Shown here: piece by piece, positions 3,442 through 37,182 of the stretch
Layout: each line of letters starts with the position of its first letter
Position numbering within the stretch: position 1 is the stretch's first letter
From: Bacteroides sp. SM23_62_1
GTDB lineage: Bacteria > Bacteroidota > Bacteroidia > Bacteroidales > SM23-62
Direction: 5' to 3'
DNA length: 37,877 nucleotides
Assembly (NCBI GenBank): GCA_001304505.1
Contig: LJUQ01000022.1
Coordinates: forward strand, 1-37,877
The notes under the pieces: generated by a model
What the model was told of the DNA's origin: nothing
What the model saw: the letters and a program-made list of their open reading frames with translations, nothing else
Databases searched by the model: none
Made by a program: the position numbers and the translations under genes

Positions 3442-5265
3442 TTATTTGTTTCTGAGCCCCTGAAGAAGTATATGTGTTTTTCTTTCTCCGATCAGATCAA
3501 TAATCTCCTGTTTGTCAGCATTTTTTATAGCTTTAACAGATCCAAAACTTAATAATAATTTTTCACGGGTTTTTTCTCCAATACCTTCAATGTGATCCAG
3601 CTCTGAAACTATCATATCTTTTGATCTTTTATTTCTATGAAATTTTACACCAAACCTGTGAGCTTCATTTCTTATCTGTTGAATAATCTTTAGTGTTTCT
3701 GAATTTTTATCAATATACAGTGGTACCGAATCACCGGGAAAACATATTTCCTCCAGTCTTTTTGCAATTCCAATAACAGCTATTTTACCTCTGAGTCCTA
3801 ATTTTTCAATACTTTTTAATGCCGCATTTAATTGTCCTTTTCCCCCATCTATGATGATCAGCTTTGGCAAAGAACCATTTTCATTTAATATTCTCTGATA
3901 CCTTCTGAAAATAACTTCTTCCATTGACTCATAATCATTTGGTCCTGTCACTGTCTTGATATTGAAATGCCGGTAATCTTTTCTGCTTGGTTTAAGTTTT
4001 TTAAACACCACGCAGGCTGCAACAGGATTTTTTCCCTGGATATTGGAGTTATCAAAACATTCTATATGATCGGGTTGATCAGCCAGGTATAGATCCTTCA
4101 TAATTGTTGCGTATTTTCTCGATATCTTCATTTCCGGTTTCATTAACTCCATCTGCTTTCTTTTTTCCAGCTGGTAAAACTTAGCGTTTCTTTCGGACAG
4201 ATTAAGTAAATGTTTTTTATCTCCTCTTAGCGGCACTGTGAAGTTTGCTCCTTGAATAGCCAGGTCAATTTTTTGTGGTACAATAATTTCCTTTGTCTGG
4301 CTTCCAGTTCGTTGCCGGATCTCAATAATTGCCATTGAAAGGAGGTCAGGAACAGATTCATCAAGTCTTTTCTTCAATTCGAGTGTCTGTGTCTGGACCA
4401 CAGAGCCATTTATAACTTTTAAGTAATTTATATATGCAGAATGCTTCTCATCTGCTATAGAATATACTTCGGCATCCTTTATTTTAGGATTTACAATGGT
4501 TGATTTACTTCTATATTTTTCCAGTATTTCTATTTTTTGTTTCACCAGTTGTGCCTGTTCAAACTCCATTGTTTTTGCATAAGAGTCCATAAGTTTTTTC
4601 AAATATTCAACTACCTGAAAGATGTTTCCTTTTAATATTTCGTGAATCTGGGTAAGGGCTTCTTCATAATCCTGCCTTGTTTGCAATCCCTCGCAGGGTG
4701 CTTTACAATTTCCCATATGGTATTCAAGGCATGCCTTGAATTTTTTCTGTTTAATATTTTCTTCTGAAAGATTAAGCTTGCAATTTCTGATAGGAAATAG
4801 CTGCCTGATTAGATCGAGTAATGTTTTAACCATCGTCACCGATGTATAGGGTCCATAATATATTGATCCATCCCTGATAACATTCCTGGTGATAAATACT
4901 CTTGGGAAAAGTTCATTTTTTACGCATATCCAGGGAAAGGTCTTATCATCCTTTAGCAACACGTTATACCTTGGTTGATGCTTTTTTATCAGGTTATTTT
5001 CCAGCAGTAATGCATCCGATTCGTCAGAAACAACAAAATGTTTAATTTCTGCGGTCTTTTTAATAAGTATCCTCAGTTTATTATTTTCAGGTTTATTTCT
5101 TGTAAAATATGAAGAGACTCTTTTTTTTAAATTCCTGGCTTTACCGACATAAAGAATTTCTCCCTGATTGCTAATAAACTGATATATACCGGGCTTGTCA
5201 GGTATTACTTCAATTAATGATTTTAAATAATCGATATGCGGGTATTCAACATTCATTTGATTCAA
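3442..5265 (-). CDS. uvrC: excinuclease ABC subunit C
   Basis: GIY-YIG start PDKPGIYQFISNQGEILYVGKARNLKKRVSSYF, UVR region, IECFDNSNIQG and C-terminal HhH. Confidence 0.97.
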   Translation of the reverse strand: MNQMNVEYPHIDYLKSLIEVIPDKPGIYQFISNQGEILYVGKARNLKKRVSSYFTRNKPENNKLRILIKKTAEIKHFVVSDESDALLLENNLIKKHQPRYNVLLKDDKTFPWICVKNELFPRVFITRNVIRDGSIYYGPYTSVTMVKTLLDLIRQLFPIRNCKLNLSEENIKQKKFKACLEYHMGNCKAPCEGLQTRQDYEEALTQIHEILKGNIFQVVEYLKKLMDSYAKTMEFEQAQLVKQKIEILEKYRSKSTIVNPKIKDAEVYSIADEKHSAYINYLKVINGSVVQTQTLELKKRLDESVPDLLSMAIIEIRQRTGSQTKEIIVPQKIDLAIQGANFTVPLRGDKKHLLNLSERNAKFYQLEKRKQMELMKPEMKISRKYATIMKDLYLADQPDHIECFDNSNIQGKNPVAACVVFKKLKPSRKDYRHFNIKTVTGPNDYESMEEVIFRRYQRILNENGSLPKLIIIDGGKGQLNAALKSIEKLGLRGKIAVIGIAKRLEEICFPGDSVPLYIDKNSETLKIIQQIRNEAHRFGVKFHRNKRSKDMIVSELDHIEGIGEKTREKLLLSFGSVKAIKNADKQEIIDLIGERKTHILLQGLRNK

Positions 5266-6892
5266 TATCCGGAAATAATGTTACCGGTGAAAATTTTTCC
5301 ACATCAAATAATCCCTTGTCGCTAATTTTTATTTTCGGGATAACAAGCAATGCCATAAAAGATAATGTCATGAATGGTGCATTCAGATGAGATCCCATTT
5401 TTTTAACCTGTTCATTCAATTGTTGATATTTCCTGGCAATATCATCACCATCATTATCTGTCATTAAACCGCCAATTGGAAGAGCCAATTCGTTATATCC
5501 CTTATCATTTAATACAACAATACCTCCCTTTATTTCTATTAATCTGTTTATAGCCTTTATTATTTCTTTATCCTCCACACCAATTGCAATAATATTGTGA
5601 CTGTCGTGTGCTACTGAAGTTGCTATCGCCCCCTTTTTTAAACCAAATCCATTAATAAATCCAACAGCGGGATGAGCCTTATGGTATCTATTGTATACAA
5701 CGATTTTCAAAACATCCTGTTTAATATCGGAATGTACGAATCCATTCTTAGTCTTCATTACCATTTTCAACTCATCAGTAAATAACTGCCCGTCATATGC
5801 TTTTATTACCCTGATATTATTTGATGATGCTTTCACAAGAATATCTTCAATGGATAAAGGTGTACAATTAAAAATATTGATTTTCTTTTCTTCAATTTTA
5901 TTAATGATTGTATTACCATTCTCAAAAACCTTTATACCATTTATGAAGGTTTCTTTAACTTTCATTTCTTTTAATGCATCCAGAACTATAAAATCTGCTT
6001 TATCTCCTTCGCGTAACAAGCCTATGTCCAGATCATAATGCAAAACCGGATTTAAGGACGATGCTTTAATCAGATCGAAAAGATCATAACCTTCCTTTAA
6101 TCCTTTTCTAATTAATAAATTGATATTCCCCCTGATAAGATCATCCGGATGGAGATCATCGGAACAAAACATAATATTATCAGGATGATCTTTGATTAAC
6201 GGGATTAACTCATTAAAATTTTTCGCTGCACTTCCTTCTCTGATTAATATTTTTATTCCAAGGCCGATTTTTTCCCGGGCTTCATCTATGTTTGCACATT
6301 CGTGATCTGTTGTTATACCTTCAAGAGCATATTTTATCAGATTCTTTCCTCTCAAACCGGGCGCATGTCCATCTATTTTCTTACCAAGACTCTTTGCCAG
6401 AAGAATTTTGTCCATTATTTTCTTATCATCATGAATAACACCTGGGAAGTTCATCACTTCTGACAGATATTTCAACTTGTAATTTCTAAAAAGTTCATCA
6501 ATGTCCTGTAATTCTAATTTTGCGCCGGATGTTTCATAATCTGTTGCCGGAACACACGAAGGTGCACCAAAGTAAAATTTGAATGGTACTTTTTCCCCAT
6601 TTCCTATCATGAATTTCACACCTTCTTTACCCAGCACGTTTGCTATTTCGTGTGGATCTGAGAGGACTGCAACTGTGCCGTGTCGAACTGCTATTCTGGC
6701 AAACTCGGAAGGTATCAGCATTGAGCTTTCAATATGCACGTGCGCATCAACTAATCCGGGTATTATAAATCTTTTCTCCCCGGTATTTTTTTTTATTACT
6801 TTTTTTATTTGCCCATCTGCTATGTGGAGTGTTCCCGGATAAATACTTCTGTTAAAAATATCTACAATATTCCCTGCTATCGTGAATTTCAT
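5246..6892 (-). CDS. ade: adenine deaminase
   Basis: GLVDAHVHIESSMLIPSEFARIAVRHGTVAVLSDPHEIANVLG amidohydrolase signature; GFGLKKGAIATSVAHDSHNIIAIG C-terminal domain. Confidence 0.94.
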   Translation of the reverse strand: MKFTIAGNIVDIFNRSIYPGTLHIADGQIKKVIKKNTGEKRFIIPGLVDAHVHIESSMLIPSEFARIAVRHGTVAVLSDPHEIANVLGKEGVKFMIGNGEKVPFKFYFGAPSCVPATDYETSGAKLELQDIDELFRNYKLKYLSEVMNFPGVIHDDKKIMDKILLAKSLGKKIDGHAPGLRGKNLIKYALEGITTDHECANIDEAREKIGLGIKILIREGSAAKNFNELIPLIKDHPDNIMFCSDDLHPDDLIRGNINLLIRKGLKEGYDLFDLIKASSLNPVLHYDLDIGLLREGDKADFIVLDALKEMKVKETFINGIKVFENGNTIINKIEEKKINIFNCTPLSIEDILVKASSNNIRVIKAYDGQLFTDELKMVMKTKNGFVHSDIKQDVLKIVVYNRYHKAHPAVGFINGFGLKKGAIATSVAHDSHNIIAIGVEDKEIIKAINRLIEIKGGIVVLNDKGYNELALPIGGLMTDNDGDDIARKYQQLNEQVKKMGSHLNAPFMTLSFMALLVIPKIKISDKGLFDVEKFSPVTLFPDIESNEC

Positions 6893-6940
6893 TTATACTA
6901 TCTTGGTTTTTATCTTTCTGGTTGAAACTATACCGTTGTA

Positions 6941-6956
6941 TGTTCCACGTGGAACA
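6941..6956. promoter_or_regulatory. parS: parS-like ParB/Spo0J binding site (centromere-like)
   Basis: Perfect 16-bp palindrome TGTTCCACGTGGAACA, intergenic between the ade start and the mnmG stop; matches the known parS consensus TGTTYCACGTGRAACA. Confidence 0.85.
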
Positions 6957-8834
6957 TTACCTTCCCATATAAACCAGGAGAACGCTTATGTCAGCAGGTG
7001 ATACGCCACTTATTCTGCTTGCCTGTCCTATTGTCAACGGCTTTATTTTCTTTAATTTTTGCCTTCCTTCTGTTGATATTGACATTATTTTATTATAATC
7101 TATCTTTTCATCAATCTTTATATTTTCAAGTCTTTTAAGTTTCTCTGCCATCTTTTTTTCCCTTTCTATATATCCCTTGTATTTAATATTAATTTCAGCA
7201 GATTCCAGTATTTCTTCTCTTCTTCTTCCCATTTTGATGATGTATTCATTAAGGTCATCAAATTCCGTATATATATCATCTATTCTTATTTGAGGTCTTG
7301 CTATTAAATCAATACTTTTAACTTTTTGCTTTAAAGTGCTGGTATTCAGCTTTTTTAATTTATCATTTATTTTTCCAGGTTCAATGCTTTTCCTGCTTAA
7401 TTCCATAATTATTCTCTTTCTATATCTTGCTTTCTCATGTACGAGTTTCAATCTTTCTTTTTTTGCCAGTCCAATTGAATGAGATAATTCTGTTAATCTT
7501 TCATCCGCATCATCCTGCCTTAAAATTATTCTGTATTCCGCTCTTGATGTAAACATCCTGTAAGGTTCATCAACACCTTTTGTAACCAAATCATCAATGA
7601 GTACACCTATATAGGCCTGATCTCTGCTTAAAATAAATTCTGTACCTTTTTTCAATTTTAAATGTGCATTTATTCCGGCGATCATACCCTGTGCAGCTGC
7701 CTCTTCATACCCAGTAGTTCCGTTAATTTGCCCGGCGAAGTACAAGTTCTTGATTTTCTTTGTTTCCAGTGTGTGATTTAATTGAGTTGGAGGGAAATAA
7801 TCATATTCAATAGCATACCCTGGTCTGTATATTTTAACTTTTTCCAGACCTTTAATTTTTCTTAATGCTTCTTTTTGAATTGTTAATGGTAACGAGCTTG
7901 AAAATCCGTTGATATAATATTCTTCCGTGTTAAGTCCTTCCGGTTCAATAAAAAGCATATGTTGTTCTTTTTCTGCAAATGTTACTATCTTATCCTCTAT
8001 ACTTGGACAATAACGCGGTCCTATACTTTTTATAATTCCTGTATATAATGGTGAATCCTTAAAACCTTTTTCCAAAATCCTGTGTACTTCTTTATTTGTA
8101 TATATAATCCAGCAGCTTTTATGTTTTGAATAATCGACATCATAATCCAGAAATGAAAACTTTTTTCCTTCATTATCTCCTTTTTGTTCGGTCATTTTTG
8201 TAAAATTTATACTCCTCCCATCCAATCTTGCAGGGGTTCCGGTTTTCATTCTACCTACCTCAAAATCATATTTTTTTAATTGTTCACTCAATCCATATGC
8301 ATATGGTTCTCCCGCTCTGCCTCCATGAATCTGTTTTCTACCAATATGCATAAGACCGTTTAAAAAGGTACCATTTGTTAATATGACAGCTTTTGATAAT
8401 ATCTTTTCGCCCATTCTTGTAATTACACCTTTTATGTTATTCTTCTCAATAATGAGTTCCGTTACCATATCCTGCCAGAACTCCAAATTTTTTGTTTTTT
8501 CGAGCATTTCCCGCCATTTTATTGAAAATTGCATCCTGTCACATTGTGCCCTTGGACTCCACATTGCAGGTCCTTTTGATTTATTTAACATTCTGAATTG
8601 TATCATTGTCTGATCAGTCACTATTCCACTGTATCCACCCATTGCATCAATCTCCCTTATAATCTGCCCTTTTGCAATCCCACCCATAGCTGGATTACAT
8701 GACATCTGTGCAATCTTTGTCATATCCATGGTAATTAACAAAACCCTAGATCCAAGATTTGCTGCTGCTGCTGCTGCTTCACTTCCAGCATGACCCGCAC
8801 CAACAACGATGATATCATATATCTCATCGTTCAT
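6957..8834 (-). CDS. mnmG: tRNA uridine-5-carboxymethylaminomethyl(34) synthesis enzyme MnmG (GidA)
   Basis: VVGAGHAGSEAAAAAANLGSRVLLIT, SCNPAMGGIAKGQIIREIDAMGG, GTTGYEEAAAQGMIAGINA. Confidence 0.97.
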   Translation of the reverse strand: MNDEIYDIIVVGAGHAGSEAAAAAANLGSRVLLITMDMTKIAQMSCNPAMGGIAKGQIIREIDAMGGYSGIVTDQTMIQFRMLNKSKGPAMWSPRAQCDRMQFSIKWREMLEKTKNLEFWQDMVTELIIEKNNIKGVITRMGEKILSKAVILTNGTFLNGLMHIGRKQIHGGRAGEPYAYGLSEQLKKYDFEVGRMKTGTPARLDGRSINFTKMTEQKGDNEGKKFSFLDYDVDYSKHKSCWIIYTNKEVHRILEKGFKDSPLYTGIIKSIGPRYCPSIEDKIVTFAEKEQHMLFIEPEGLNTEEYYINGFSSSLPLTIQKEALRKIKGLEKVKIYRPGYAIEYDYFPPTQLNHTLETKKIKNLYFAGQINGTTGYEEAAAQGMIAGINAHLKLKKGTEFILSRDQAYIGVLIDDLVTKGVDEPYRMFTSRAEYRIILRQDDADERLTELSHSIGLAKKERLKLVHEKARYRKRIIMELSRKSIEPGKINDKLKKLNTSTLKQKVKSIDLIARPQIRIDDIYTEFDDLNEYIIKMGRRREEILESAEINIKYKGYIEREKKMAEKLKRLENIKIDEKIDYNKIMSISTEGRQKLKKIKPLTIGQASRISGVSPADISVLLVYMGR

Positions 8835-22691: not shown

Positions 22692-23690
22692 TTATAAACC
22701 TAATCTATCAGATATTTCAAGCATTCTCCTTATTGATTTAACAGCTTTATTTCTTATTTCTTTTTCAACAATAACTTCAGGTATTTCAAACCTCAGCGTA
22801 TTATATATTTTTTTCATTGTTATAAGTTTCATAAAATTACAATCATTACATGCGCATGTTGCATTTTCCGGTGGAGCGGGAATAAACAATTTTTCAGGGT
22901 TTACTTTCTTCATCTGGTGTATTATTCCGGATTCTGTTGCAACAATATATTTCTTATTCTCATCTGACTTTGTATACTTTAAAAGAGCATTTGTTGAACC
23001 AATATAATCTGCAACAAGTAATATTGGTTGTTCACATTCAGGATGTGCGATGATTTTAGCATCCATATTTTTATTTTTTATCTCTAAAATTTTTTCAAGT
23101 GAAAATTCTTCATGTACGTGACAGGCACCCTGCCATATCCTCATTTCCCTTCCTGTTATGCTTTTAATATAATTCCCCAAATTTTTATCCGGTGCAAATA
23201 TGATTTTTTCTTTTTCCGGAATACTATTTATGATCTGTACAGCATTTGATGATGTGCAGATTATATCTGAAAGAGCTTTAATTTCAGCTGATGTGTTAAC
23301 ATATGATACAACTATATGACCTGGATTTAAACCTATAAATTTTCTGAATTCTTCAGGATCACATGATTCAGATAATGAGCATCCGGCATTAAGATCAGGA
23401 ATTAACACTTTTTTTTCTGGTGATAAAATTTTTGCTGTTTCTGCCATGAAATAAACACCTGCAAATAAAATAATCTCCGCTTTTGTTTTCGCAGCCTGCT
23501 GTGATAATTGAAGACTATCACCTACAAAATCCGCAATGTCCTGTATTTCACCAATTTGATAAAAATGAGCAAGTATGATTGCATTTTTTTCTCTTCTCAT
23601 CCTGCCGATCTCTTCTACCATATTTACAGAATCTTCAACAGCAATATCGACATAGCCTTTCATTATTAAATCAGATTTATCTACTGCCAT
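22692..23690 (-). CDS. nadA: quinolinate synthase NadA
   Basis: AIILAHFYQIGEIQDIADFVGDSLQLSQQAA, CTSSNAVQII, HPECEQPIL, ENATCACNDCNFMKLITM. Confidence 0.97.
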   Translation of the reverse strand: MAVDKSDLIMKGYVDIAVEDSVNMVEEIGRMRREKNAIILAHFYQIGEIQDIADFVGDSLQLSQQAAKTKAEIILFAGVYFMAETAKILSPEKKVLIPDLNAGCSLSESCDPEEFRKFIGLNPGHIVVSYVNTSAEIKALSDIICTSSNAVQIINSIPEKEKIIFAPDKNLGNYIKSITGREMRIWQGACHVHEEFSLEKILEIKNKNMDAKIIAHPECEQPILLVADYIGSTNALLKYTKSDENKKYIVATESGIIHQMKKVNPEKLFIPAPPENATCACNDCNFMKLITMKKIYNTLRFEIPEVIVEKEIRNKAVKSIRRMLEISDRLGL

Positions 23691-24107
23691 TATATATTAA
23701 ATATTTTATCAAAATTATTATGATAATGTTTATGTTATGTTAGAATTGTTATTAAATATTTAAAATAAATTTTTAAATCAATATTAAGCTGGAAGTAACA
23801 AATAATGAACAAATAGATAAAAAAAAAATTATTGAAAAAGAAATAATTAAAAAAAATTTAACAAGCTGTTGATTAAGATAATTTCACGTATGCACAAATT
23901 CTATTACTGTACAGATTGTTAATTTTTTGTTTATCTAAAAGTATAAATTATAAGAATTAAATTTTGAATACTCATAAAAAACAATAATAACATTCAAAAT
24001 TAAGGCCAAAAAAAAATATTTAATAAATAATCCAATAAGTATTAACTATGTTTTAACAGGCTATTGAATTCCCAACTCATTTAATTATTAAACACAAGAA
24101 TAAAATA

Positions 24108-24123
24108 AATACTTTTAAGTATT
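24108..24123. promoter_or_regulatory. inverted repeat AATACTT-TT-AAGTATT, candidate Rrf2 operator
   Basis: Perfect 7-bp arms, 16 nt upstream of a TAAATTTG -7-like element (24140-24147), in front of the Rrf2 gene. Confidence 0.4.
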
Positions 24124-24139
24124 AAATAAATAATTTGTA

Positions 24140-24147
24140 TAAATTTG
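24140..24147 (+). promoter_or_regulatory. putative -7 element TAAATTTG for the Rrf2 gene
   Basis: TAnnTTTG match about 60 nt upstream of the ATG. Confidence 0.35.
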
Positions 24148-24206
24148 AGTTACAGGTAAAAATAATTTTAATAAAAACACCAATAATAGATTAAAAAGTA
24201 ATTAAA

Positions 24207-29109: not shown

Positions 29110-30329
29110 GATATACCTCCATATATTGAATAACTATCATATTGTATTAAGTTGCTTTGCGTGGCAACTGACTCAGAAATAGGGTATGGTTGACTTTCGT
29201 GGCGGGAAAATTTAGAACCCAGATAGACCACTGAACCTTTTCGGTCGAAAGGAATTAACACAGTCAAATTACCCTTCTGACGAATTGCATCAAGACTGTT
29301 ATAGATATAATATCCATTGGATTCGGTAAAGTTTTGTATTTCACCTATTGTACCGGAGAATTCCATCCATAATTTTTCAAACATGGAAAAACCAAGAAAT
29401 ACATGAAACACAGGCTGAATATTTTTTTCACTAATTAATTGAAAATTTGTGGCTATATCTCCTCCCAGATATAGGTTCAAATTACCTAGAGGAAAAATGG
29501 TAATTCCCATTAAATTCTGAAAATATTCTTTATCGTTCAGGAATGTATAGTGGGAAGCAAACCGGATATCTGCAATTCCTGCAGACTTAAGAACAGACAA
29601 GCCGGTTACGAGACCATAATCATTTACTGTATTGTAACTCACCTGTACTCCTTTTAGTCCACCTGTTGAGATCGAATTAATCAAAGGATAAGAATAAGTT
29701 AGTAGGTGTATGGAGGGACTGATAACCCAATTATTCCGGAATGTCGTACTCAGGGTGACATAATACTGATGCTGCCTGATGGCATAGTCGAGGTTGTTAA
29801 TAATGTAGATACCATCGTTGTAATGGTGAAAATCTGTTTTATTCAGATAGGTATATCCATGAAACAGGCTGAATCTATGTCCAATAGGATGTGAAGCTGA
29901 CAGACTGAAATTATGAAAATCTCTTGTTACAATCTGATAACCTGTCAGATCAGCGGGAAAATAATTACCTGCATTTGAGACAATATTATACCTTGCACAG
30001 TCATATTTTCCCAGGAGTAAACAGGCGTAGTAAAGATATTCAAGTGCCACCGGATCATTTTCATTGAAAGTGAGAGCTTTTTTAAAATGCCTGGATGCTT
30101 TGATATAATTATGTTTTTCATAGTATGCTATACCAAGCCTCATGCGTAAGTAATAATAATCAAACCCGCTTTTTATTGCCTGATTACCTTTTTCAATAAG
30201 CGTGGTCCATTCTTTATCTGAATAAAGCTGATAAGTTTCTTTATCAACAGTAATAAAATTGCTTTCCTGGGCGGAAATAATCCAGGAAGCAAACAACAAT
30301 ATATTTATAATAACTGATCTGGCTGACAT
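29097..30329 (-). CDS. TPR N-terminus plus probable outer-membrane beta-barrel
   Basis: N-terminal TPR (ALTFNENDPVALEYLYYACLLLGKYDCARY) then alternating amphipathic strands ending SIYGGISWKL. Confidence 0.72.
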   Translation of the reverse strand: MSARSVIINILLFASWIISAQESNFITVDKETYQLYSDKEWTTLIEKGNQAIKSGFDYYYLRMRLGIAYYEKHNYIKASRHFKKALTFNENDPVALEYLYYACLLLGKYDCARYNIVSNAGNYFPADLTGYQIVTRDFHNFSLSASHPIGHRFSLFHGYTYLNKTDFHHYNDGIYIINNLDYAIRQHQYYVTLSTTFRNNWVISPSIHLLTYSYPLINSISTGGLKGVQVSYNTVNDYGLVTGLSVLKSAGIADIRFASHYTFLNDKEYFQNLMGITIFPLGNLNLYLGGDIATNFQLISEKNIQPVFHVFLGFSMFEKLWMEFSGTIGEIQNFTESNGYYIYNSLDAIRQKGNLTVLIPFDRKGSVVYLGSKFSRHESQPYPISESVATQSNLIQYDSYSIYGGISWKL

Positions 30330-32506
30330 ATAGCATTAATTGATAATCCTTTTCCCTTCACAGAAAATTGTTTTAAACCATTGTTGTCCAATTCAATAGT
30401 ACTGAAAGATTCAGCTATACACTGACCAAAAATTTTGTTTCTGGCTTCCGATATAAGAACGATCTTTGATGGGGAGATCTCATTATCGATAAAATCGTAA
30501 GTAATAGCATATTCAGATTGCAGGAATTTCCAGAATGGGGCGACAAAATCCTGAAGACTGAGTAATGGCTGTTTATAAATCAGGTTTAATGGGAATTTAT
30601 CGTGAAGGACCAGGTTTGAATAAAATCCCTGCTGAATTTTAAAAGCTGAAATAAAGAAAAAGTATAATAAAGTATTTTTCCTGCCCTCATAATGTTTGAA
30701 ATAGAGAAGGTTACCGTCGTTGGTAAACCACGCTTTGGAATGATCCTGTTGACAGACGATATAAGTATTATTGTATGGATCGGTTTGAACTTCCCATGTT
30801 TCGGTAAATTCATCTTTATTATTATTCACCTGGAATGCGAGTTTATATCCAGGTATAAAATTGAATGCGTTGTGAATCAAATCGTTCACTTCTATGTTTG
30901 AAACCTTCTGATCCTGTTGTGGAATTTCAAATTGTTTTAATTCAAAATCTTTTTCAGAGAGAAGGATATAGTAGCTAAAGGGATAATGCATGGTTGGGGA
31001 TCCAATATAGGGAGTTGATTGGAACTGAATATGCAGATGCGGGTAGGGTGACCTGCCTGAATTCCCACAATTTCCGACAATATCTCCTTCCTTAACACGA
31101 TCTCCAGGTTTTACTTTGATGGATTCTGATTTAAGATGGCTAAGAGAGCTAAAAAGTGTATCACCGTGTTTGATTATCACCGTATTACCCCAGTTCTCAT
31201 GGATATTCACATCACCTATTTTGTTATCCGGAATATCATCCTCAACATGTTCAATAGTACCATCTGCCGGTGCCAGTACAGCTTTATCAAAACAGTAGTA
31301 ATCTGTTAAAAGTTCACCCTTATTTTTATATTGCTTTTTATCCGCATCAGTAATTACGAAATCCCATGCATGCCTCCATTCGGCTTTGTGGGTATGTTCT
31401 CCGTCATGTGCCTGGGTGATTGTCCAGGTACCATAAAAGGGTAATTTAACCGGTATCATATTATGCCTGAAACGGATCAGGTCATTATGAAATGAATACA
31501 GATTTTTTTCCGGCGAATTTTGTTGAATAAGTACTTCTGTGAGTTTTGGAGAAAAATTCACCCTGAATTTTAATGAATAGAGAAATAACAGTACAATAAT
31601 GTTAAAAGGCAGAGAATAGACAGGTAGGATAAATACCCCAAATATTGTGGATAAGCTTATTGTAAGGATTGCCACTATAGGTACCAGAACCAGAACCCAT
31701 AGATAGGATCTGGCAGAGGGAATGATAAAGAATCCCCCAAGGGCAATTGAGGTAAGAATATAATTGAAACCGATATAACTGTAACTCAGTTCAGATATGT
31801 CAGCACCAATTATTTCGTAAAAAAGATAAGCAGCATAAAATCCCAGCAGAGAAAGTGTAAAGGATATCCTGGAATACAATAACAATCCAATAGCGATTAA
31901 TATTCCTGAAAGAATGTTAAACTGGAAAAGTATAGCACCCAGGGAGATCAGGTATATTCTTATGGATCGTGCAACATGAAGATCGTTCCACCATTCATAA
32001 ATGCGGACCAGGAAATTTCCTCCAATTATATACAGATCATTAAAGGTATAAATACCCCGCTCACTGATACCCAGAACAGTAAAATCTCTTGTTGCGAGTG
32101 TAAAAATCCATATACTTAGAAGAAAAGGTATACTGAGATAAGGAAGAGCATATTTCCCAATAACACCCTGCATGGAAACGGCAATAAACAGGGTAAAAAG
32201 TGCTGCCAGTATAATGATCATCAAAAGGAAGAAATCGGGGCGGTAGTAAATACCCAGGGCCAATCCCACCAGCAGACTGTTAAAACCATAAATTCCTTTT
32301 GAGATTGTTTGTTTATGAAGACCGAAAAGATATCCTGCACTGTTTGTTATGATCACTGAAACCAATCCAAAGAGCCCTGCATAAAAATCCACGAAGGTGA
32401 CCAGAAGTATGATAACAGAAAATATTCTGTTATCTGAAAAAAAAACCTGGGAATAGCTATTCAGGATTCCTTTAAAGAAAAGAGATATGTCATCTTTTTT
32501 GATCAT
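30305..32506 (-). CDS. urea transporter (UT family) fused to a C-terminal M23 peptidase domain
   Basis: N-terminal polytopic region with SQVFFSDNRIFSVIILLVTF and KGIYGFNSLLVGLALGIYY (UT pattern); C-terminal LAPADGTIEHVEDD...NWGNTVIIKHGDTLFSSLSHLKSESIKVKPGDRVKEGDIVGNCGNSGRSPYPHLHIQF (M23). Confidence 0.87.
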   Translation of the reverse strand: MIKKDDISLFFKGILNSYSQVFFSDNRIFSVIILLVTFVDFYAGLFGLVSVIITNSAGYLFGLHKQTISKGIYGFNSLLVGLALGIYYRPDFFLLMIIILAALFTLFIAVSMQGVIGKYALPYLSIPFLLSIWIFTLATRDFTVLGISERGIYTFNDLYIIGGNFLVRIYEWWNDLHVARSIRIYLISLGAILFQFNILSGILIAIGLLLYSRISFTLSLLGFYAAYLFYEIIGADISELSYSYIGFNYILTSIALGGFFIIPSARSYLWVLVLVPIVAILTISLSTIFGVFILPVYSLPFNIIVLLFLYSLKFRVNFSPKLTEVLIQQNSPEKNLYSFHNDLIRFRHNMIPVKLPFYGTWTITQAHDGEHTHKAEWRHAWDFVITDADKKQYKNKGELLTDYYCFDKAVLAPADGTIEHVEDDIPDNKIGDVNIHENWGNTVIIKHGDTLFSSLSHLKSESIKVKPGDRVKEGDIVGNCGNSGRSPYPHLHIQFQSTPYIGSPTMHYPFSYYILLSEKDFELKQFEIPQQDQKVSNIEVNDLIHNAFNFIPGYKLAFQVNNNKDEFTETWEVQTDPYNNTYIVCQQDHSKAWFTNDGNLLYFKHYEGRKNTLLYFFFISAFKIQQGFYSNLVLHDKFPLNLIYKQPLLSLQDFVAPFWKFLQSEYAITYDFIDNEISPSKIVLISEARNKIFGQCIAESFSTIELDNNGLKQFSVKGKGLSINAICQPDQLL

Positions 32507-32523: not shown

Positions 32524-33870
32524 TTAAGCCAGGTGATCTGGAATTTTTTCTGAAGCTATAATATCTTCCAGTTTCTCAGCTTTCCTGATAATATGATCAT
32601 TTCCATTGATATCAATGAGAACAACATTGGGTCTGAGTGTAATAAACTGCATCCATTGTGACATATTATATGCTCCAATACGTTTAATTACAAAATGGTC
32701 TCCTTTTTTCAAGATAGGAAAGGCAATCGCTTCCCTGAGTACATCGATGTTCATGCACAGAGGGCCGTAGATCGTTGACTCTTCAAGATGTTCAGAAGAT
32801 GATTTTGCAGGATGAATTTCATGTTCATACCAGAAGGATGTAAACATCAGATTAACGCCAATATCAACAATCGTTGCTCTTCTTCCATCGGACAGCCTTT
32901 TATTGGCAATGACAGTTCCTACCAAATACCCGGCATCATCGATCAATGCGCGTCCGGTCTCAAGGATAAGAACAGGGAGCTTTCTTGGATTGATCTCAGA
33001 ATTAAGAAGTGCGGAAGTAATGGCCTCGGCATATTCATCAAATGTAGGGACAGTATCTTTTCCCGGGAGATATGCTCCTTTAAGCGTATTTTTAGAAGCA
33101 AATCCACCTCCGATATCGATATACTTCAGATTAACACCAAATTTCTTCTCGAGCCTGAAAGCCAGGTCAGCCAGTTTGGCCATCGCTACCTTGTAAGCAT
33201 TTGCGGAAAGCATATATGTACCAATATGTGTATGTAAACCAGCAAGTTCAAGTTTTTCATTGATCATGATCCGGTTAATAGCATCCCACGCTTCTCCATT
33301 CTCATAATTAAATCCGAACCTGTCCCACATCGGAAAAACACCGGTATCCATGTTGACCCTGATCGCGACTTTTGGTTTTTTATTCAGCTTACCCGCAATA
33401 TCTATGATCGCGTACATTTCATCGAAATGATCAATATGGATAAATGAATCGTTATGGATTGCACATTCCAGGTCATCATCCGTTTTGTCCGGACCATTAA
33501 ATATGATCTGTGATCCATTAACACCATTATGCAACGCTTTATCATATTCAAAGCGGGAAACCACTTCAGCCCATGATCCTTCCTGATGAAATACCCTGCA
33601 AACTGCATTCAGATAATTGGTCTTATAAGACCAGGCAAATTGAACTTTAGGATAACGGGTTGCAAATGCCTGTTTTGCTCTTGCCATAGTCTCACGGATA
33701 TTTTTTTCGGAGATAACATACAAAGGAGATCCAAATTTTTCAATTAAATCTTCAACAGGATATTCGTCAATGCTGGATATGGCATCGATTCGCACAGGCA
33801 TACCAAATTTACTGGGCATACCGGCACTTAATTTTTTAATATATGGTCGTTCAAATGGTTTTTTTTCCAT
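32524..33870 (-). CDS. fold-type III PLP-dependent decarboxylase (diaminopimelate/ornithine decarboxylase-like)
   Basis: FAWSYKTNYL (PLP lysine region), LAGLHTHIGTYM, YIDIGGGFAS, ILETGRALIDDAGYLVG, YGPLCMNIDVL. Confidence 0.87.
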   Translation of the reverse strand: MEKKPFERPYIKKLSAGMPSKFGMPVRIDAISSIDEYPVEDLIEKFGSPLYVISEKNIRETMARAKQAFATRYPKVQFAWSYKTNYLNAVCRVFHQEGSWAEVVSRFEYDKALHNGVNGSQIIFNGPDKTDDDLECAIHNDSFIHIDHFDEMYAIIDIAGKLNKKPKVAIRVNMDTGVFPMWDRFGFNYENGEAWDAINRIMINEKLELAGLHTHIGTYMLSANAYKVAMAKLADLAFRLEKKFGVNLKYIDIGGGFASKNTLKGAYLPGKDTVPTFDEYAEAITSALLNSEINPRKLPVLILETGRALIDDAGYLVGTVIANKRLSDGRRATIVDIGVNLMFTSFWYEHEIHPAKSSSEHLEESTIYGPLCMNIDVLREAIAFPILKKGDHFVIKRIGAYNMSQWMQFITLRPNVVLIDINGNDHIIRKAEKLEDIIASEKIPDHLA

Positions 33871-36228: not shown

Positions 36229-37182
36229 TCAATTTGTTAAATCTGATTCCTTAACGCCGTATTTCTCTTCTTCTTCGCAGCTGCCTGCCGGTTCTATATG
36301 TATCATAATATCAAAAATATTATCCATATCATTCCGTATCGCTTTTTCTGTATTACAGGCGATTTTATGCGCTTCCTGGATTGTAATTGTACTGTCGACC
36401 TCAATATCAAGTGCGATCATAAAATAATTTCCGATTTTCCTGATCCTGAGACGATGAGGATTATAAGCACCTTCCACTTTTTCAATAGCTTTAAATACTT
36501 TCTGATACAATCCCTTATCTGATACACCATCCATCAAGTCACGGTTGGTCTGCATAAAGATCTGAATACCAACTTTAATGATCCATACACTTACAATCAA
36601 TGCTGTTACAGAATCAAGTACCGGCATTTTAAGGATGAAAGTGAAGAACAAACCAACCAGGACAGCCAGGGAAATCAGCACATCATTCTGCATGTTTCTT
36701 GCATTTGCTTTCAACATTTCACTGTTGGTCTGTTTACCTTTCCGGAACTGGTGTACTGATAGTAATATCTTACCAGCAACGGAGACCAGTGTTACATAGA
36801 TGGCCAGCATTTCAGGCATTTCCCGTACCTTTCCTTCAATAAATCCATGAACTGTTGTAATGGCCAGTTGAGCTCCGGCGAAAAATATGATGAAAGCAAG
36901 TGCTTTGGTAGCAATCGTATCGGCTTTAAGATATCCATAAGGATATTCCGGACTGGGAGGCCGTCGCATTACTCTAGCTGTGAAAAGTGTTATTAATGAT
37001 GTTACAATATCACTTGCAGAATCAATGCCATCTGCCAGAACAGCCAGACTGCCCGATATAACGCCTGCAATTATTTTAAGAACGGAAAGGAAAATATTTC
37101 CCGATACAGCAATCCACGAAGCCCTGATGATACTCTGGATATTTGTTAACACCGAGTTGGATCTTTTACGTGCTAATACCAA
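36229..37182 (-). CDS. cation diffusion facilitator (CDF) family transporter
   Basis: SLAVLADGIDSASDIVTSLITLFTARVMRRPPSPEYPYGY; NDVLISLAVLVGL; C-terminal cytoplasmic domain ALDIEVDSTITIQEAHKIA. Confidence 0.94.
   Translation of the reverse strand: MVLARKRSNSVLTNIQSIIRASWIAVSGNIFLSVLKIIAGVISGSLAVLADGIDSASDIVTSLITLFTARVMRRPPSPEYPYGYLKADTIATKALAFIIFFAGAQLAITTVHGFIEGKVREMPEMLAIYVTLVSVAGKILLSVHQFRKGKQTNSEMLKANARNMQNDVLISLAVLVGLFFTFILKMPVLDSVTALIVSVWIIKVGIQIFMQTNRDLMDGVSDKGLYQKVFKAIEKVEGAYNPHRLRIRKIGNYFMIALDIEVDSTITIQEAHKIACNTEKAIRNDMDNIFDIMIHIEPAGSCEEEEKYGVKESDLTN

Follow-up and report, generated by a model that had tools for sequence, protein, structure and literature searches.

A probable parS centromere site abutting mnmG in a Bacteroidales genome and its conserved position in Bacteroidota

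Two described kinds of site come closest to the one analysed here: the parS sites of ParABS systems of the B. subtilis and Caulobacter type (consensus TGTTTCACGTGAAACA), and the Noc binding site NBS (TATTTCCCGGGAAATA), which is also a 16-bp palindrome and is read by a paralogue of ParB. The 2007 survey of Livny et al. is said to be the founding one for parS. That parS lies near the replication origin is textbook knowledge (PMC7333895), and residues R173 and G201 are absolutely conserved in ParB and altered in Noc (PMC7383237). The available portion of a Hi-C study describes how parS clusters and GC skew were used to locate ori in 12 gut strains, of which Bacteroides caecimuris and Muribaculum intestinale are the two Bacteroidetes. 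The placement was borne out by read coverage and Hi-C, and the study notes that the origin did not always coincide with dnaA and that B. caecimuris gave a secondary-diagonal (arm-alignment) signal with no recognisable condensin (PMC10197239). That portion reports neither a linkage of parS to mnmG nor a conserved position of parS across a phylum.

The window, by which we mean the whole analysed stretch of 37,877 nucleotides from Bacteroides sp. SM23_62_1, carries at positions 6941–6956 a perfect 16-bp palindrome, TGTTCCACGTGGAACA, to which no strand is assigned and which extends to 18 bp when the A/T pair on its flanks is included. It matches the parS pattern TGTTYCACGTGRAACA exactly and is the same 16-bp palindrome as that of the ParABS type within accepted Y/R variation; it has the bases of parS (TGTT...CACGTG...AACA), not those of NBS. 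The site is non-coding and lies between two minus-strand genes. One is mnmG (gidA; 6957–8834; TIGR00136, 824 bits; PF01134), a conserved landmark whose TAA stop codon abuts the palindrome with zero spacing, and the other, behind the site, is the adenine deaminase gene ade (5246–6892; TIGR01178, 619 bits), which starts at 6892 and stands between mnmG and uvrC. The nearest named mnmG genes are 57–67% identical and nearly all labelled Bacteroidota, the best of them being from Bacteroidales MAGs. The first-pass annotation had described an exact parS palindrome, non-coding, directly at the mnmG stop codon and the sole one of its kind in the window, and each of these points is borne out: a search of the whole window for a second copy of TGTTCCACGTGGAACA gave no match at up to three mismatches. 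Elsewhere in the window, a 733-aa frame at 30305–32506 unexpectedly combines a urea-transporter domain (PF03253) with a peptidase M23 domain (PF01551).

Palindromy as such is not unusual in this DNA, as there are five perfect 16-bp palindromes in the window in all; what is unusual is the match to parS. Another of these palindromes, TGGTCTTATAAGACCA at 33618–33633, falls within a decarboxylase gene (32524–33870) and is likely due to chance. From base composition, TGTTYCACGTGRAACA would be expected about 3e-5 times per window and about 0.004 times per 4.74-Mb genome. The MAG to which the window belongs (4.74 Mb in 305 contigs, 92% complete, 7% contaminated) has exactly one exact parS site in the whole assembly, and the same motif read backwards, used as a control, has no match anywhere in it. 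The next best match in the MAG, TGTTTCACGTGATACA on contig C283, has one mismatch and by its coordinates is within a coding frame; it is plausibly a chance occurrence.

The position of the site beside mnmG is shared widely. For this comparison, 80 Bacteroidota loci were chosen by MnmG similarity alone, with parS disregarded; they were drawn from Bacteroidales, Flavobacteriales, Cytophagales and one Chitinophaga-labelled bin, and a site was counted as parS-like if it had at most one mismatch and lay no more than 300 bp before the mnmG start or after the mnmG stop. Such a site was present in 73 of the 80 loci (downstream in 57, upstream in 48, on both sides in 32). Site density near mnmG was 116 times that of the flanking DNA, with 137 sites in 48.8 kb vs 34 in 1.41 Mb, and the backwards-read motif did not occur in the 80 loci. 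Across the 137 sites, for which up to one mismatch had been allowed, positions 2–4, 6, 10, 11 and 13–15 never vary. In several of the loci compared in this work (L010, L011, L017, L075, L087, L090 and L095) the site is directly at the mnmG stop codon, like that of the window. In one locus, L037 from Flavobacterium sp. MC2016-06, about 10 parS-like sites lie upstream of mnmG, and four of them are TGTTCCACATGGAACA at intervals of about 117 bp, resembling a repeat array.

The converse approach gave a similar picture. Thirty loci of the same order were picked by the motif alone, and mnmG was within 1.5 kb in 27 of them; the three exceptions are L094, L097 and L102, the last of which has its site between an adenine-deaminase-like ORF and a uvrC-like ORF. 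The relatives compared were six genomes of the same family and 92 more of the same order. An exact parS occurs in 64 of 99 genomes, usually once or twice per genome, and the backwards motif has no match in any of the 99. Three of the six same-family genomes have no site at up to one mismatch, in assemblies that are 72–90% complete. Eight Bacteroidota isolates have one to three clustered sites per genome at up to one mismatch, and this, together with the single exact site of the MAG, fits the expectation of few copies rather than many scattered ones. The gene behind the site varies: the window and several relatives have ade there, two same-family genomes have an apt-like ORF, and others have uvrC. 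In those two genomes (G005 and G006; loci L275 and L273), the apt-like ORF occupies the slot of ade, so that one adenine-salvage gene is swapped for another while the gene order is otherwise conserved.

The protein expected to read such a site is common in these lineages. ParB was found in 91 of the 99 genomes, including all six of the same family (best E about 1e-34 or lower). One same-family ParB (L129) adjoins ParA, aligns to ParB-parS proteins of known structure, with 3.6e-48 for Caulobacter ParB 6t1f, and retains the contacts GKxR (as GKKR), N and GHAR, with R173 and G201 (Caulobacter numbering) among them. Among 21 ParB loci, the GKxR...GHAR arrangement is present in all 17 that had an extractable segment. 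The presence of an exact parS shows no clear separation with that of ParB among the 99 genomes, in part because the exact pattern is strict. None of 20 ParB genes examined has a parS site within 1.5 kb.

Two other readings of the palindrome concern its neighbouring genes. It could be the stem of an intrinsic terminator or 3′-end hairpin of mnmG, given that the RNA can fold into a 6-bp stem capped by an ACGU loop and that folding of the 98-nt region is somewhat more favourable than that of shuffled sequences (z −1.85); yet no terminator-like site was found in 6700–7200, no T-run follows the stem, and what is conserved is the sequence itself, not merely its pairing. Moreover, 48 of the 80 loci carry the sequence upstream of mnmG, a position from which it cannot terminate transcription of that gene. 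On the grounds of the missing T-run and these 48 loci we reject a terminator, which we regard as extremely unlikely. An operator for a transcription factor that controls a downstream purine gene (ade or apt) has about as little to recommend it. The palindrome does precede the ade start by 48 bp, and several relatives also have ade behind mnmG, but the site stays while the gene downstream changes among ade, an apt-like ORF and uvrC, it occurs on either side of mnmG, and TGTTCCACGTGGAACA is identical to the parS consensus that PMC7383237 uses, except at the Y/R position. Because the site outlives its neighbour, we do not take it to be the operator of that neighbour.

A different kind of objection is that the site is a relic, an orphan parS in a lineage that has lost ParB, kept by chance or read by some other protein. 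The first-pass annotation had held that a genome without parB would refute its proposal, and in the MAG no ParB was indeed found, either with PF02195 or with a same-family ParB as query. But the essential gene dnaA was not found in this incomplete assembly either, and a 92% complete genome in 305 contigs that lacks both genes suggests that the gaps are technical. A single weak DnaA-family match in the MAG was set aside as an IstB-type helper ATPase beside a transposase-like ORF, as judged by eye from the sequence. Given the missing dnaA and the ParB genes of all six family members, missing contigs are the most likely reason for the absence of ParB, and it would also be unexpected for an unused 16-mer to remain perfect for long. 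The relic reading, which can point to a second genome in the same state, is therefore very unlikely in our estimation. That second genome, G038 (L105), is 95% complete and has an exact parS at the mnmG stop codon and no ParB match; an assembly gap or loss of parB are both possible there.

We conclude that the palindrome is, with a probability of about 0.92, the chromosomal parS of this SM23-62 Bacteroidales organism. This assignment from sequence rests on the exact match to the consensus, the single exact site in the MAG, the conservation beside mnmG, the location near the origin in B. fragilis and three Flavobacteriales (see below), and a same-family ParB with the residues that read parS. Like parS of the ParABS type, the site is present in few copies, is proximal to the origin in relatives, and is accompanied in its family by a ParB that keeps the parS-contacting residues; unlike that type, parS in Bacteroidota is found beside mnmG and not beside parAB.

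The proximity to the origin was first proposed from the clustering of parS sites near oriC and the frequent nearness of gidA to parAB and oriC; comparison supports it, but nearness to parAB as a reason needs correction. In the complete chromosome of B. fragilis, the only two sites at up to one mismatch (4,587,252 and 4,597,162) are both near mnmG. GC skew was sampled there in 60 windows of 20 kb, after which the region was read contiguously, and it has a clean pattern that reaches its minimum at 4,492,976 and switches in the opposite sense near 1.9 Mb. The distances from this minimum to the two sites are thus 94 and 104 kb, or about 2% of the chromosome length. In Winogradskyella, Bizionia and Dokdonia, the sign of the skew flips no more than about 50 kb from the parS/mnmG site, in contigs that are large partial chromosomes with some skew noise elsewhere. 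Few sites close to the skew origin, as had been anticipated, is accordingly the pattern of B. fragilis and of these three Flavobacteriales. The location of parAB is another matter: in B. fragilis, the skew minimum is separated by 0.85 Mb from dnaA (3,644,263) and by 0.88 Mb from parB (178,637), and about 0.78 Mb lies between parB and parS. The locus therefore appears to be origin-proximal though parAB is not near, and closeness to parAB does not explain this in B. fragilis.

For the MAG itself, proximity to an origin is indicated indirectly, through a switch in composition at about 24 kb of the window. The skew minimum of B. fragilis is about 40 bp before a nadA ORF (4,491,946–4,492,938, minus strand), and the window has an orthologue of this gene (22692–23690, minus strand; PF02445). 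Directly upstream of it is an intergenic region of 516 bp with 16% GC (23691–24206, no strand assigned), located 16.8 kb from parS, where strand composition switches; we propose it as a candidate oriC. Among the skew curves of the window, only the minimum of cumulative AT skew (at 23,753) and the end of a steep negative slope of GC skew (about 24 kb) point to this position, the overall GC-skew minimum being at 36,846, slightly below a plateau that begins at 24 kb. By composition at third codon positions, the minus-strand genes to the left of 24 kb resemble leading-strand genes, and several genes to the right resemble lagging-strand ones. DnaA boxes upstream of nadA are enriched in L010 and L014, and they show no significant enrichment in the window, B. 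fragilis or L011. Because the boxes are not significantly enriched in the window, the proposal is based on composition and synteny, and it is with moderate confidence that we suggest that the window may contain oriC upstream of nadA.

If the site functions as known ParABS systems do, ParB dimers encoded by a parAB operon at another chromosomal location would bind the 16-mer as a nucleation site. Bound ParB would then close into CTP-dependent clamps and slide onto the adjacent DNA, and ParA would carry the ParB-parS complex, along with the newly replicated origin region, into the daughter cell. The parS-mnmG pair may be an old landmark of the origin, retained there as parAB and dnaA came to occupy other positions. 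Somewhat better than even, in our judgement, are the chances of a wider picture in which the centromere of Bacteroidota goes with mnmG and the origin, not with parAB or dnaA, selection on the distance between parS and the origin keeps the parS-mnmG block in the origin region as a fixed landmark, with the genes of the machinery far away, and the origin of the window lies upstream of nadA. In the literature covered, which is partial, we did not find a parS-mnmG linkage across Bacteroidota, and we make no claim that it is unreported.

Finally, we note that the site in the window is an ordinary, well-supported chromosomal parS, and that the useful part of the finding is its conserved address. The origin in Bacteroidota is not necessarily close to dnaA or parAB. 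If parS-mnmG marks the origin throughout the phylum, then a one-line search would place the origin in isolates as well as in fragmented metagenome assemblies, and the mnmG-adjacent parS offers a precise site for work on ParB in gut Bacteroidota. For research on chromosome segregation, we suggest that these bacteria provide a natural example of a centromere whose position is retained with the genes of its own system located elsewhere.
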